In this document: piece after piece, positions 43,811 to 48,762 of the stretch
How positions within the stretch are numbered: position 1 is the first letter of the stretch
Layout of the letters: each line of letters opens with the position of its first letter
Source of the DNA: Ornithinimicrobium cerasi
GTDB taxonomy: Bacteria > Actinomycetota > Actinomycetes > Actinomycetales > Dermatophilaceae
Reading direction: 5' to 3'
NCBI RefSeq assembly: GCF_003702705.1
Contig: NZ_QZMN01000008.1
Span: 1 to 64,000 of the forward strand
DNA length: 64,000 nucleotides
Position numbers and translations under genes: made by a program
The notes under the pieces: generated by a model
Told to the model about the DNA's origin: nothing
What the model saw: the letters and a program-made list of their open reading frames with translations, nothing else
The model's database searches: none

Positions 43811-45844
43811 ATGCCTCGTTCCACCAGCCTCGTCCTCGTCCCGCTCTCCGCAGCCCTCGCGCTCGGCGGATGCTCGGCCACACCGGAGCCGCCGGGGGGC
43901 GGGGTGACGACCGGGCCGTGGGACTCCTCGGCCGCGCGGGCCGCGGTGACCGCACTGCCGGTGGGCTACCTGGCGGACTTCGACGACTGCGGCGGGCTGC
44001 TCACCTACTACCAGGCCAACGCCCTGGAGCTGGTGACTCCCTACGGGATCGGCGGCTTCGGGATGGGCCGGGACGGGTCGGGAGTGGCCGTCGAGGACAA
44101 CTCCGGCGGTGGGGACAGCGGGGGCGAGGCGGCCGGTGGTGACTCGCCGGTGCCCCGGGAGCACTCGAGCACCAACGTCCAGGAGGAGGGGATCGACGAG
44201 GCCGACCTCGTGAAGACCGACGGCCGGATCATCGTCACCACGACCGGGGGGCGCGTGCGCGTCGTCGACGTCGACACCGAGGCGGTGGTCTCCGAGGTGC
44301 AGATGCCCGGCCGCCGCGACCAGGTCTCGCCCTCCGAGCTGCTCCTGCACGGGAGCACGCTCGTCGTGCTCGGTCAGGAGTGGGGCTCCGCGCAACCGGT
44401 GGACGGGCGGTTCCTCCCGTTCGGTGCCGCCCGGACGGTCGTGATGACCGTCGACCTCTCCGACCCGAGCTCGCCCCGGACCCTGGGCTCGGTCCGCATC
44501 GAGGGGTCCTACCGGTCGGCCCGGATGGTCGGCGACACGGTGCGGATGGTCATGGTGACCGAGCCGGTGGGGGTGGAGCAGACGACGCCGCGGGACAACT
44601 CGCTGGGCGCGGAGTCCGCGGCGGAGGAGGCCAACCGTGACCTCGTCCGCTCGACGACCATCGACGACTGGGTGCCCCATGTGCAGGTCCTCGACGCCGA
44701 CGGCGGGGTGCTCTCCACCGAGCAGCTCCTCGCCTGCGACGAGATCTCCAGGCCTCGCGACCCCGCAGGCCTGTCGACGATGTCGGTCCTGAGCTTCGAC
44801 GTCGCCTCGGGGTCGCCGAGGCCCACCTCGGGCAGCGGTCTCGTCGCCTCCGGGGACACGGTCTACGCGTCCTCCGACCGGGTGGTCGTGGCGACGAGCG
44901 GGTGGGACCTGTGGCGCTGGGTGGGTCCGGCGGTCGACGCCATCTGGCCCACCGAGCCGGTCAACCGGACCGACCTGCACACCTTCGACATCTCCGACCC
45001 CGGCGCCACGACCTACGTCGCCTCGGGCAGCGTCGAGGGACACCTGCTCAGCCAGTGGGCGCTGGACGAGCAGGACGGGGTCCTGCGGGTGGCGACGACC
45101 ATGGACCCCCCCGGGGCCTCCCAGCAGTCCGAGAGCGCGCTCGTCATGCTCCGCGAGGAGGATGACGAGCTGGTCGAGACGGGCCGGGTCGACGGTCTCG
45201 GGGTCACCGAGCAGATCCGGGCGGTCCGCTACCTCTCCCCCGACCTCGCCGCGGTCGTGACCTTCCGGCAGACCGACCCGCTCTACCTCGTCGACACCAG
45301 CGACCCCGCCGCCCCGGCGGTGGCCGGCGAGCTGAAGATCCCCGGCTACTCGGCCTACCTGCACCCCGTCGGTGAGGGCTGGTTGCTCGGCGTCGGGCAG
45401 GACGCCGACGAGAGCACCGGGCAGACCAAGGGCCTGCAGGCCTCGCTCTTCGACATCCGCGACCTGGGGGCTCCGCGCCAGACGGCGGTGCTGACCTGGC
45501 CGAACGGCTACTCGCCGGTGGAGAACGACCACCGCGCGTTCACCTCCTGGCCCGCGACCGGGCAGGTCTTCCTCCCGCTGACCATGTGGTCCGACGTCGC
45601 CTGGGACGGGATCGACCCCGCCGAGTCGGGCGCCTTCGGCGGCGTGGTGGCGCTGGACGTCGGCGAGGGCACCCTCCGCGAGAGCGGCCGGGTCCCCACC
45701 GGGCCCAAGGAGCAACCCGACTGGACCGAGGGACCGATGCGCACGATAGTCATCGGCGAGGACCTGTGGACGCTCGGCTGGCAGGGGCTGTCCCGCTTCG
45801 ACCTGGCGACGCTCGAGGGCGGGTGGGTCGTCGACCTGCCGTGA
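43811..45844 (+). CDS. secreted beta-propeller domain lipoprotein
   Basis: 677 residues from ATG 43811 (GGAGG upstream). A lipoprotein signal ends in ALALGGC, with lipidated C21. After a Gly/Ser/Glu-rich linker (about 85-120) the segment STNVQEEGIDEADLVKTDGRIIVTTTGGRVRVVDV begins the C-terminal beta-propeller domain known from secreted proteins of bacteria and archaea (Beta_propel family). Repeats such as LHTFDISDPGATTYVASGSVEGHLLSQW and LYLVDTSDPAAPAVAGELKIPGYSAYLHPVGEGWLLGVG are blades. The function is unknown, presumably binding or structural at the cell surface. Monocistronic. Confidence 0.9.
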   Translation: MPRSTSLVLVPLSAALALGGCSATPEPPGGGVTTGPWDSSAARAAVTALPVGYLADFDDCGGLLTYYQANALELVTPYGIGGFGMGRDGSGVAVEDNSGGGDSGGEAAGGDSPVPREHSSTNVQEEGIDEADLVKTDGRIIVTTTGGRVRVVDVDTEAVVSEVQMPGRRDQVSPSELLLHGSTLVVLGQEWGSAQPVDGRFLPFGAARTVVMTVDLSDPSSPRTLGSVRIEGSYRSARMVGDTVRMVMVTEPVGVEQTTPRDNSLGAESAAEEANRDLVRSTTIDDWVPHVQVLDADGGVLSTEQLLACDEISRPRDPAGLSTMSVLSFDVASGSPRPTSGSGLVASGDTVYASSDRVVVATSGWDLWRWVGPAVDAIWPTEPVNRTDLHTFDISDPGATTYVASGSVEGHLLSQWALDEQDGVLRVATTMDPPGASQQSESALVMLREEDDELVETGRVDGLGVTEQIRAVRYLSPDLAAVVTFRQTDPLYLVDTSDPAAPAVAGELKIPGYSAYLHPVGEGWLLGVGQDADESTGQTKGLQASLFDIRDLGAPRQTAVLTWPNGYSPVENDHRAFTSWPATGQVFLPLTMWSDVAWDGIDPAESGAFGGVVALDVGEGTLRESGRVPTGPKEQPDWTEGPMRTIVIGEDLWTLGWQGLSRFDLATLEGGWVVDLP

Positions 45845-45958
45845 CCCTGGCCGCCGATCGCGGGACGGATCGCCGTGCGTGAGGATGAACCTGCGGTCGA
45901 ACCTGCGCGATGACGTCGATTCTTCGATATCAGGTACCCCCTGGCCCATCCAGCCGAA

Positions 45959-45988
45959 TTGACTTCGACCATCGAGCGCTGCTAGAAC
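45959..45988 (+). promoter_or_regulatory. metYX promoter, positioned for a leaderless start
   Basis: -35 TTGACT (45959-45964), an 18-base spacer, -10 TAGAAC (45983-45988). Six bases later comes ATG 45995, so transcription would start at or next to the A of that codon. Confidence 0.7.
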
Positions 45989-45994
45989 TTCCCC

Positions 45995-46030
45995 ATGACC
46001 ACCGCTCGTCGCCGAATGCGCAGCTGCTGA
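45995..46030 (+). CDS. short leaderless leader peptide before metY (ends Cys-stop)
   Basis: ATG 45995 to TGA 46028-46030 encodes MTTARRRMRSC. The promoter lies so close that the message would begin at its ATG, and leaderless short open frames with terminal cysteine codons are known cysteine-responsive attenuators in mycobacteria. Here the TGC and TGA codons lie inside two competing RNA stems. A ribosome pausing on Cys would therefore choose between them. The downstream genes make homocysteine or take up sulfide, which fits. It is too short for statistics, so the evidence is positional. Confidence 0.6.
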   Translation: MTTARRRMRSC

Positions 46031-46171
46031 GCCCTCCCTCGCAGCTGCTCTCGCGACGACGCGACGCACCCGGGTGACCGGATCCCCAATACCTGCGCTG
46101 CCGAGGCGGGCTCAGCAGAGGAACACCTCCCCTGCAGACCCCACCAGCCCTCCCTCGAAGGACGCGCAGCC

Positions 46172-47506
46172 ATGAGCACCTACACCGACTTCACCACCCG
46201 CCAGATCCACGCCGGCCAGACCCCCGACACGCACACCGGCGCCCGGGCGCTGCCGATCTACCAGACCACCTCCTACGTCTTCGACGACGCCGACCAGGCC
46301 GCCAACCGGTTCGCGCTCGCCGAGCTCGGCCCCATCTACACGCGCATCACCAACCCGACCCAGGAGGTCGTGGAGAACCGGATCGCCGACCTCGAGGGCG
46401 GGGTCGGAGCGCTGCTCGTCGCGTCCGGTTCCTCCGCCATCACGCTCGCCATCCTCAACCTCGCGGGGGCGGGCGACCAGATCGTCGCCAGCCCGAGCCT
46501 CTACGGGGGCACCCAGAACCTCTTCGCGCACACCCTGCCGCGGCTCGGCATCGAGGTGACCTTCGTGGAGGACCCGACCGACCCGCAGTCCTGGCGGGCC
46601 GCGGCACGGGAGAACACCAAGGCCTTCTTCGGCGAGTCCCTCGCCAACCCCAGCAGCGAGGTGCTCGACACCGAGGCGGTGGCAGCGGTCGCGCACGAGA
46701 TCGGCGTCCCGCTCATCGTCGACAACACCATCCCGACCCCCTACCTGACCCGCCCGATCGAGCACGGCGCGGACGTGGTCGTGCACTCGGCGACGAAGTA
46801 CCTCGGCGGCCACGGCACCGCGATCGCCGGCGTGATCGTCGACAGCGGCAACTTCGACTACGGCCAGAACGACCGGTTCCCCGGCTTCACCGAGCCCGAC
46901 CCCAGCTACAACGGCCTCGTCTACGCGGAGGCGCTCGGCAAGGACGGGATCTTCGGCGTCAACCTCTCCTACATCCTCAAGGCGCGCGTGCAGCTGCTGC
47001 GCGACCTCGGCCCGGCCATCTCCCCCTTCAACGCCTTCCTCGTGGCCCAGGGCATCGAGACGCTGTCGCTGCGCATCGAGCGGCACGTCGCGAACGCGGG
47101 CAGGGTCGCGGAGTGGCTCGCCGCGCACGACCAGGTCGAGAGGGTCGTCTACGCCGGCCTGCCCGACCACCCCTCGCACGCGCTGGCACAGAAGTACCTG
47201 CCCGGCGGGGCCGGAGCCGTCCTCGCCTTCGAGATCGCGGGCGGCCTGGAGGCCGGCAAGGCCTTCGTCTCGGCGCTGGAGCTGCACAGCCACGTCGCCA
47301 ACATCGGCGACGTGCGCTCGCTCGTCATCCACCCGGCCTCGACGACGCACAGCCAGCTGACCGAGGAGGCGCAGCGGGCGGCGGGCGTGACGCCGGGACT
47401 GGTGCGGCTCGCCGTCGGGATCGAGGGGGTCGAGGACATCCTCGCCGACCTGGGCACCGGCTTCGCGGCGGCCGCGCAGGTCACCGCCGAGACCGAGGCG
47501 GCCTGA
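46172..47506 (+). CDS. metY: O-acetylhomoserine sulfhydrylase (aminocarboxypropyltransferase)
   Basis: 444 residues from ATG 46172 (GAAGGA upstream). A Cys/Met-metabolism PLP enzyme: [51 protein letters not shown], and PLP lysine K209 in [18 protein letters not shown]. The long insertion [23 protein letters not shown] and [27 protein letters not shown] mark the O-acetylhomoserine branch. It condenses O-acetylhomoserine with sulfide to homocysteine. Directly followed, after two bases, by metX, which makes its substrate. Confidence 0.97.
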
Positions 47507-47508
47507 GC

Positions 47509-48762
47509 ATGGCCGTCCAGCCCGCCTGTCCGGAGCCGCAGGTCGGCGGCGGCGACCGGCCCGCACGGCATACCCCGCCGCCGTCGCGCCGCCGCAGCCA
47601 GGCGGTCGGTGACCTCGTCCTGGAGTCGGGTCAGCTCCTCGAGGGGGTGCGCGTCGGCTACCAGACCTGGGGCCGGCTCAACGAGGCCGGGGACAACGCG
47701 GTGCTCGTCCTGCACGCGCTCACCGGTGACAGCCACGTCGTCGGCGAGCGCGGGCCGGACCACCCGACCCCCGGGTGGTGGCCGGGTCTCGTCGGTCCGG
47801 GCCGGCCCCTGGACACGGACCGGTGGTTCGTCGTCGCGCCCTCGGTCCTCGGCGGCTGCGGCGGGACCACCGGCCCCTCCTCCCCGGCGCCGGACGGACG
47901 GCCCTACGGGTCCTCCTTCCCGGCGATCACCGTCCGGGACCAGGTCCGCGCGGAGGCGCTGCTCGCGGACCGGCTCGGCATCCACAGCTTCGCGCTCGTG
48001 GTCGGCGGCTCGGTCGGGGGTATGCGGTCGCTCGAGTGGGCGGTGACCTTCCCCGGAAGGGTGCGCCGGTGCGTGGTGCTCGCCGCGGGCGCGGCCGCCA
48101 CCGCCGACCAGATCGGGTGGTCGGTGCCGCAGCTGCACGCCATCCGGCTCGACCCCGCCTTCCACGGCGGCGACTACTACCCGGGGCCGGGGCCGCGGCA
48201 GGGCCTGGCGATCGCCCGGCAGATCGCGCACGCCACCTACCGGTCCGCGGAGGAGCTGTGCCTGCGGTTCGGCCGGGGCGGCCAGGAGGGCGAGGACCCG
48301 CTGCGCGGGGGCAGGTATGCCGTGCAGTCCTACCTCGAGCACCACGGCAGCAAGCTGGTGCGGCGCTTCGACGCCAACTCCTACCTCGCGCTCACCGAGG
48401 CGATGAACTCCCACGACGTCGGGCGGGGTCGCGGCGGGGTCGAGGCGGCGCTGCGCCGGATCACCGCCGAGCTGACGGTCGGCGTGGTGTCGAGCGACCG
48501 GCTGTTCCCGCCCGCCGACGGCGCGGTCGTGGCGTCCTCGCCCGCCTGTCGCGAGCTGGCGGTCATCGAGTCCCCCTACGGGCACGACGCCTTCCTCATC
48601 GAGACCGATCAGGTGTTCGCGATCATCCGGCGCGCGCTCGACTCGTCGCCCGTCCCGCGGGGGAACCAGCCGCCCCGACCACCGTCGGCTCACCCGCAGC
48701 CGCGCACCGCGGCGCGCACGGGGACGGTGCGCCAGATCCGGCCGACAGCGGCGGCATACTGA
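47509..48762 (+). CDS. metX: homoserine O-acetyltransferase
   Basis: 417 residues from ATG 47509, two bases after the metY stop. Alpha/beta-hydrolase: LVLHALTGDSHVVG, PSVLGGCGGTTGPSS, nucleophile S168 in GGSVGGMRSLEW, the RRFDANSYLALTEAM segment, then VVSSDRLFPP (Asp) and SPYGHDAFLIE (His) complete the triad. It acetylates homoserine with acetyl-CoA, supplying MetY for direct sulfhydrylation to homocysteine. The last 40 residues are a Pro/Arg-rich tail beyond the usual end of the family. Confidence 0.96.
   Translation: MAVQPACPEPQVGGGDRPARHTPPPSRRRSQAVGDLVLESGQLLEGVRVGYQTWGRLNEAGDNAVLVLHALTGDSHVVGERGPDHPTPGWWPGLVGPGRPLDTDRWFVVAPSVLGGCGGTTGPSSPAPDGRPYGSSFPAITVRDQVRAEALLADRLGIHSFALVVGGSVGGMRSLEWAVTFPGRVRRCVVLAAGAAATADQIGWSVPQLHAIRLDPAFHGGDYYPGPGPRQGLAIARQIAHATYRSAEELCLRFGRGGQEGEDPLRGGRYAVQSYLEHHGSKLVRRFDANSYLALTEAMNSHDVGRGRGGVEAALRRITAELTVGVVSSDRLFPPADGAVVASSPACRELAVIESPYGHDAFLIETDQVFAIIRRALDSSPVPRGNQPPRPPSAHPQPRTAARTGTVRQIRPTAAAY

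Follow-up and report, generated by a model that had tools for sequence, protein, structure and literature searches.

What does the 11-codon reading frame in front of metY and metX do, and to which signal might it respond? The window, by which we mean the whole 64,000-nucleotide stretch of DNA that was analyzed, carries metY (46172..47506), annotated as a bifunctional O-acetylhomoserine/O-acetylserine sulfhydrylase, followed by metX (47500..48762, putative start codon), a homoserine O-acetyltransferase. Both genes lie on the forward strand, as do all features described below, and both were confirmed by NCBIfam (PRK07812 and MetX). The nearest named records for the MetY of the window are from Ornithinimicrobium and Serinicoccus, with identities of 87% and less. 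A sequence-only reading had proposed a cysteine-sensing attenuator upstream of the two genes, and its promoter boxes, frame, stem arms, and repeat copies were all found in the letters where it had placed them. Our best reading is that the window leader represents a novel version of control by leaderless leader peptides, and we consider it reasonably probable that it functions as a ribosome-mediated attenuator that senses sulfur amino acids. The frame would then be a compact and widely conserved case in which one rare codon (CGA before ATG) is apparently selected beyond the amino acid alone, and codon-speed sensing, together with the logic of a riboswitch and a leader peptide in series, becomes directly testable in non-pathogenic actinobacteria.

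The metYX Leader and Its Conservation in the Genus

The presumed leaderless promoter (45959..45988) is composed of the -35 box TTGACT (45959-45964), an 18-base spacer, and the -10 box TAGAAC (45983-45988), all of which were checked in the letters. Six bases separate the -10 box from ATG 45995, the leaderless-type start codon of the frame MTTARRRMRSC (45995..46030, with TGA at 46028-46030). The promoter spacing fits a start at the 5' ATG and is conserved, and a leaderless start is presumed; a consensus scan of 45800-46400 returned no sigma-70 promoter match. Within the frame, the dicodon CGA-ATG (Arg-Met, 46013..46018) is invariant in the metY-leader comparison, and the final sense codon, the Cys codon TGC (46025..46027), is invariant in 20 aligned rows from the genus. 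A C-rich, G-poor tract (46119..46157), which is a candidate Rho loading region, precedes the metY ribosome-binding site, where the Shine-Dalgarno motif AAGGA and the start codon (46158..46174) were read from the letters.

The pattern of the second half of the frame was found in 22 of 32 genus genomes with up to two mismatches allowed (20 exact and 2 with one mismatch), versus three matches for the backward control pattern in the same search; this pattern fixes part of the frame's letters beforehand and therefore biases the apparent conservation. A leaderless-type ATG frame is present in 20 of the 22 matching genomes, and the remaining two are of a SAM-IV/GTG type. The 20 leaderless peptides end in RRMRSC, RRMRRC, or RRMCRC; their N-terminal part is variable, and their length differs by one codon only. 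All 20 have ATTGACTTCG at the -35 position, and the TTGACT of the window falls inside it. The segments CGCCGAATG and GCTGCTGAG are unchanged across the 20 rows, partly because the search pattern selected them. The CAGCAG of the downstream stem arm was not selected by the pattern, yet it is invariant in all 20 rows within a spacer that is otherwise variable. Lack of conservation in relatives was among the conditions that the sequence-only reading had named as refuting it; both the frame and the stem are kept, and the attenuator idea withstood this check. The start signals and the substitution pattern argue for translation of the frame, which appears to be under coding-type and codon-level selection. 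Conservation is also strong around the -35 box, where GAATTGACTTCG at 45956-45967 (GCATTGACTTCG in one subclade) may hold a regulator site.

The CGA-ATG Dicodon and Its Two Start Architectures

For the wider comparison, 134 metY upstream regions were collected (54 loci and 80 stretches), with 18 further prepared regions left out; L051, counted among the 134, begins within the gene and so is not genuinely upstream. Of the 134 regions, 58 contain a short frame that has CGA-ATG no more than seven codons from its stop, leaving 76 without one. In 50 shuffles, the number of regions with such a frame averaged 0.6 and never exceeded 3, and the reverse strand yielded 1. When other Arg codons were placed before ATG, the counts were CGC 1, CGG 2, CGT 0, AGA 0, and AGG 0; those for CGC, CGG, and CGT, the three CGN codons for which shuffles were run, equal the shuffle level. 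Because the other Arg-ATG pairs occur in just 0-2 regions each, the rare codon CGA itself seems to be constrained. The codon that precedes CGA varies over the 58 frames (CGT 20, CGC 17, TGT 10, and TGC 6) while CGA is constant. The Cys codons of these leaders are TGC in 42 cases and TGT in 35 (35 of 77). In 34 long GC3-rich frames of the window, CGA makes up 3.7% of the Arg codons and TGT 2.8% of the Cys codons (3 of 107), both shares being lowered by the choice of frames with GC3 above 0.88. Set against this usage, the leaders hold a rare codon constant and use rare Cys codons frequently. The CGA codon was read slowly or poorly in a Salmonella his-leader assay (PMC4046918).

The 58 frames are spread over ten family labels (f1, f2, f3, f5, f9, f10, f13, f14, f16, and f20). 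Among 80 MetY loci with names, a set that overlaps the first, 25 contain a CGA-ATG frame, one of them (L216) probably by chance; in Demequina the frame reads MFRRMCR or MLRRMCR. In family f21, which may be Streptomycetaceae, the pattern ATG-TGY-CGN-CGN-ATG-TGY, with any CGN permitted, has four matching places in 62 genomes. Three of these end leader-like frames (MCRRMCHC, MCRRMCHR, and MCRRMCAR) that precede a gene for a MetN-like ATPase; each of them has CGA, continuing as CGA-ATG-TGT. At the fourth place (L306) the codon is CGG, and no MetN-like gene was seen there. The one ATPase that was scanned (L303) scores highest against the MetN model, with 378 bits, which is short of the curated cutoff of 499.7. 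These metN-like leaders would constitute independent support for the fixation of CGA.

The start signals of the 58 frames appear to switch coherently between two types. A SAM-IV riboswitch lies upstream of 18 frames by Rfam (17 of them by pattern also, and L058 by Rfam), and each of the 18 has a Shine-Dalgarno-like motif before the frame. The 40 frames without SAM-IV all start with ATG, and 39 of them lack such a motif. In 27 of the 40, TAnnnT ends 6-8 nt before the ATG. Another 11 belong to the clade of the window, nine having TAGAAC, TAGACA, or TACAAC at the -10 place and two (L008 and L009) having weaker boxes; L104 and L134 are of neither kind. In related genomes, the SAM-IV riboswitch (RF00634) sits before the frame, whereas it is absent from the window leader, with no match in the window at the gathering threshold, nor at E values up to 10 for 45700-46400.

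The spacing in the SAM-IV loci was determined from 45 of 46 Rfam matches, the omitted one (L042) having its SAM-IV downstream of metY. In 21 loci with a frame, the frame starts 28-46 nt past the aptamer (median 41), and metY lies at a median of 220 nt; in 24 loci without a frame, metY starts 31-145 nt past the aptamer (median 77), where the start of metY is that of the match and not always the true start codon. These gaps place the frame between riboswitch and metY, at about the usual target place of the riboswitch. The figures of 21 and 24 do not express a prevalence, since the loci were largely chosen with their frame status known. In five of the 24 frameless loci, all of uncultured origin, the gap is 131-145 nt long. 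We tentatively suggest, as a possibility short of an expectation, that in part of the order the direct target of SAM-IV is not metY but the beginning of a timer frame of 7-9 codons with CGA-ATG and Cys. With the Shine-Dalgarno-like start 28-46 nt behind the riboswitch, SAM would gate the entry of ribosomes into the frame, and sulfur amino acids would govern their progress and speed of exit; the lineage of the window would keep the timer in leaderless form. A leaderless promoter would serve the micro-frame in some genomes, and a SAM-IV riboswitch in others.

Two of the five loci with long gaps, L218 and L220, were seen by eye to have a Shine-Dalgarno-like site and then MLCMPVRR or MRCQHMRR, each closed by a stop codon and without CGA-ATG, before metY; they are possibly a third version of the riboswitch-frame relay. 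In L227, MCCCRMTTR and a stop codon follow SAM-IV, so that polycysteine and CGA-ATG are combined in one frame, which may be a bridge to the mycobacterial polycysteine type.

Pairing, Proposed Signal, and Output

The longest perfect stem of the 177-nt leader is 11 bp, a length reached in 4 of 500 dinucleotide shuffles. It joins the 5' arm CTGCTGAGCCC (46024..46034), which overlaps the Cys and stop codons of the frame, to the 3' arm GGGCTCAGCAG (46108..46118), a segment 73 bases downstream. In 20 related leaders, 98.6% of the cells of this stem are paired, compared with 28.2-44.5% after a shift of 1-3 columns. Two sequences carry a compensatory change at one pair, from C-G to U-A; the exceptions are an A-C mismatch in two sequences and loss of the last pair in one. 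The covariation score was matched by 8 of 500 column shuffles, and the count of doubly changed pairs by 129 of 500. A competing local hairpin was found in the alignment of genus leaders, in which GCTGC.GAG (46023..46031) pairs with CTC-GCAGC (CTCGCAGC, 46038..46045); 98.1% of its cells are paired, and no covariation was found in the 20 rows. The support for both structures is conservation and not covariation because their columns are mostly invariant. The two overlap at 46024-46031, exclude each other, and include the control codons, as expected for an attenuator. The mutually exclusive pairings of the sequence-only reading are upheld to this extent, with both structures kept. Its second pairing, between two full copies of GCAGCTGC (46020-46027 and 46041-46048), is conserved in the form of this local hairpin; both full copies are present in 4 of the 20 genus rows. 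A third helix, for which GCTGCCGAGG (46097..46106) is a possible partner of 46037-46045 and is complementary to the local 3' arm as well, has 86.7% of its cells paired, which is no better than column shuffles, and shows no covariation. Across the 58 leaders, complementarity of the frame to downstream sequence was not above that of shuffles (mean z of -0.42, with 5 of 58 below -2).

In the mechanism that we propose, ribosomes would begin at the 5' ATG once it is transcribed and would be slowed by the rare CGA codon, finishing quickly only with charged Cys-tRNA, and perhaps Met-tRNA too. Since the Cys and stop codons lie within the 5' arm, a waiting ribosome should cover 46024-46034 and prevent the long stem; on its departure, the 3' end of the frame could pair locally or with 46108-46118. 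Depending on this choice, more or less transcript or translation would reach metY, most likely via Rho acting on the C-rich tract, and low sulfur amino acids would raise metYX.

Cysteine is the likeliest signal because Cys is present in 56 of the 58 CGA-ATG peptides, versus 52 of 269 for the remaining short frames in these regions, and because its position moves, as in RRMCR, CCRMPNR, RRMRSC, and MCCCRMTTR. Cys follows CGA-ATG immediately in 36 of the 58 metY leaders; in the window it comes three codons after RRM. What stood of the proposed cysteine sensor is the conserved leaderless-type Cys frame before metYX, with its 3' end in a conserved pairing; cysteine as the signal is less secure, since two of the 58 peptides lack Cys and the fixed part is CGA-ATG. 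Methionine, or the decoding of Arg-Met, with the Cys codons secondary, is a serious rival that we nevertheless judge unlikely. In its favor, the gene product acts in methionine synthesis, metL has been published as a methionine-dependent leader (PMC8079986), and the two peptides without Cys (L023 and L027) both contain Met. However, the CGA-ATG seeding of the frame set makes the internal Met invariant by construction, and Cys is enriched and shifts position as expected of a selected residue. Stalling by the nascent peptide is less probable still. An Arg-Arg-Met-(Cys) peptide that arrests the ribosome in response to SAM, cysteine, or another small molecule, and not through an empty tRNA, would agree with a short fixed core that has one fixed codon and a variable Cys position. 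The fixation is at the codon level, however, with other Arg codons before ATG in 0-2 of 134 regions, which points to decoding. The most remote reading has the frame as incidental, with the motif acting as a DNA operator or solely as an RNA hairpin. In several other families (L026, L044, L109, L140, L147-L153, L175, and more), CGAATGTGC is followed by GCGCACGTTCG as an inverted repeat that could fold into a hairpin spanning the Met, Cys, and stop codons, but the right arm GCGCACGTTCG was not seen in the clade of the window or in the SAM-IV type, and the frame, start signals, and stop persist while synonymous sites vary.

With respect to the output of the attenuator, the consensus scan found no terminator-like site in 45800-46400, and thus no classical intrinsic terminator with a U tract. 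In 11 leaders from the same clade as the window, C makes up 47% and G 23% of the metY -60..-15 region on average; the corresponding shares in the 76 frameless leaders are 39% and 30%. The lack of an intrinsic terminator in the scan and the C-rich, G-poor tract lead us to favor Rho-dependent attenuation. Rho-dependent termination has been found in a riboswitch-uORF leader of M. tuberculosis (PMC12810186). We regard it as rather doubtful that the output is translational, such that the leader hides the metY ribosome-binding site until stalling of the ribosome exposes it, the arrangement suggested for the mycobacterial polycysteine frames. CTGCGC at 46093-46098 can pair with GCGCAG at 46164-46169, between the Shine-Dalgarno motif and the ATG. 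Against this, folding with a ribosome on the Cys codon made the site easier to open in 11 of 20 leaders, harder in 6, and unchanged within 0.5 kcal/mol in 3, the mean predicted opening cost falling from 8.3 to 7.7 kcal/mol when the footprint was masked. What stands is the conserved pairing of the frame end; that it gates metY is a proposal, with no consistent release of the ribosome-binding site in the folding and no intrinsic terminator in the scan.

Known Systems and Other Loci

Canestrari reportedly described polycysteine leaderless short ORFs of mycobacteria in 2020, and a B12 riboswitch-controlled upstream ORF of M. tuberculosis is said to be of a similar kind to the riboswitch-frame arrangement, with another ligand. 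The window leader is not a polycysteine frame, not a SAM-IV leader, and not a terminator-type attenuator. The mycobacterial frames attenuate sulfur genes via ribosome speed (PMC9031893, PMC13236596, and PMC4633059) and, like the window leader in its presumed form, are leaderless short Cys frames before sulfur genes. They differ in having contiguous Cys codons near the stop, where MTTARRRMRSC has one Cys and a fixed CGA-ATG, and in the proposed hiding of a ribosome-binding site, for which folding of the 20 leaders gives no consistent support. Cysteine leader peptides have also been predicted in front of cys operons in Mycobacterium and P. acnes, as well as cbs in B. longum (PMC1262725, main text). 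These are short frames with Cys codons near the stop and no clear terminator, for which the authors suggested Rho, as we do here; unlike the window leader, they have runs of Cys, other genes, and no conserved hairpins, and metY does not occur in that main text. In the Mbox leader of M. tuberculosis, a riboswitch directly targets a small upstream ORF with Rho-dependent termination, but the ligand is different and the product is a conserved small protein instead of a Cys/Met micro-frame (PMC12810186).

The closest published relative that we found is the metL leader of metNIQ in Streptomyces lividans TK24. The metL peptide MSTTSDRTPATEATTTPGARCMCRRMCAF, closed by a stop codon, is leaderless, precedes metNIQ, and lacks a typical Rho-independent terminator (PMC8079986). 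Like the window leader in its presumed form, it is a leaderless leader peptide before a methionine operon, and it contains the core RRMC; it differs in having 29 residues, an uptake operon, and several Cys around the core, compared with 11 residues and metYX in the window. The passages on metL considered here highlight methionine and threonine and not CGA, Cys, or metY (PMC8079986), and the likeness is drawn here from the peptide. The f21 leaders described above, at the ends of longer frames, resemble metL. The window leader probably groups with metL, a membership left less certain because its Cys is displaced from RRM. A literature search on the core RRMCR returned nothing related, and by title and abstract no comparable leader, whether with CGA-ATG or before metY, was listed. 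The sequence-only reading did not include the invariant CGA-ATG, the SAM-IV arrangement of relatives, or the metL relative.

Searches away from metY gave mixed results. The genome of the window has no metN match at E values up to 1e-90, no short CGN-ATG frame near a stop was found in 500 nt upstream of the metN-like genes of relatives at nine loci, and a search of f21 for CRRMCAF was negative (0 of 61). A longer frame, MCSGRMCLRPGRATHAR, lies upstream at one metN-like locus (L332). The exact motif CGNCGAATGTGYCGCTGA was found phylum-wide in 1 of 396 genomes, with no metY in that 3-kb locus, and order-wide, with up to one mismatch, in at least 135 of 396. Among 51 of the order-wide matches (L135-L185), 20 have metY downstream, 8 are the regulator leader of family f19, and the remaining 23 are of neither kind, most of them apparently chance or coding matches. 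We take f19 to be, perhaps, Microbacteriaceae. Class-wide, YGNCGAATGTGYCGCTGA was found in 16 of 393 genomes, of which 14 belong to f19, and M-C-[CR]-R-M-C with CGA was found in 19 of 374, all in f19. At the f19 loci (L166-L173, L326, and L327), MCCRMCR with CGA-ATG and a terminal stop codon lies roughly 190 nt before a gene for a predicted winged-helix protein, which is Trans_reg_C by Pfam for L166 only and alike by eye for the others. A uracil phosphoribosyltransferase gene adjoins it in both regions that were examined.
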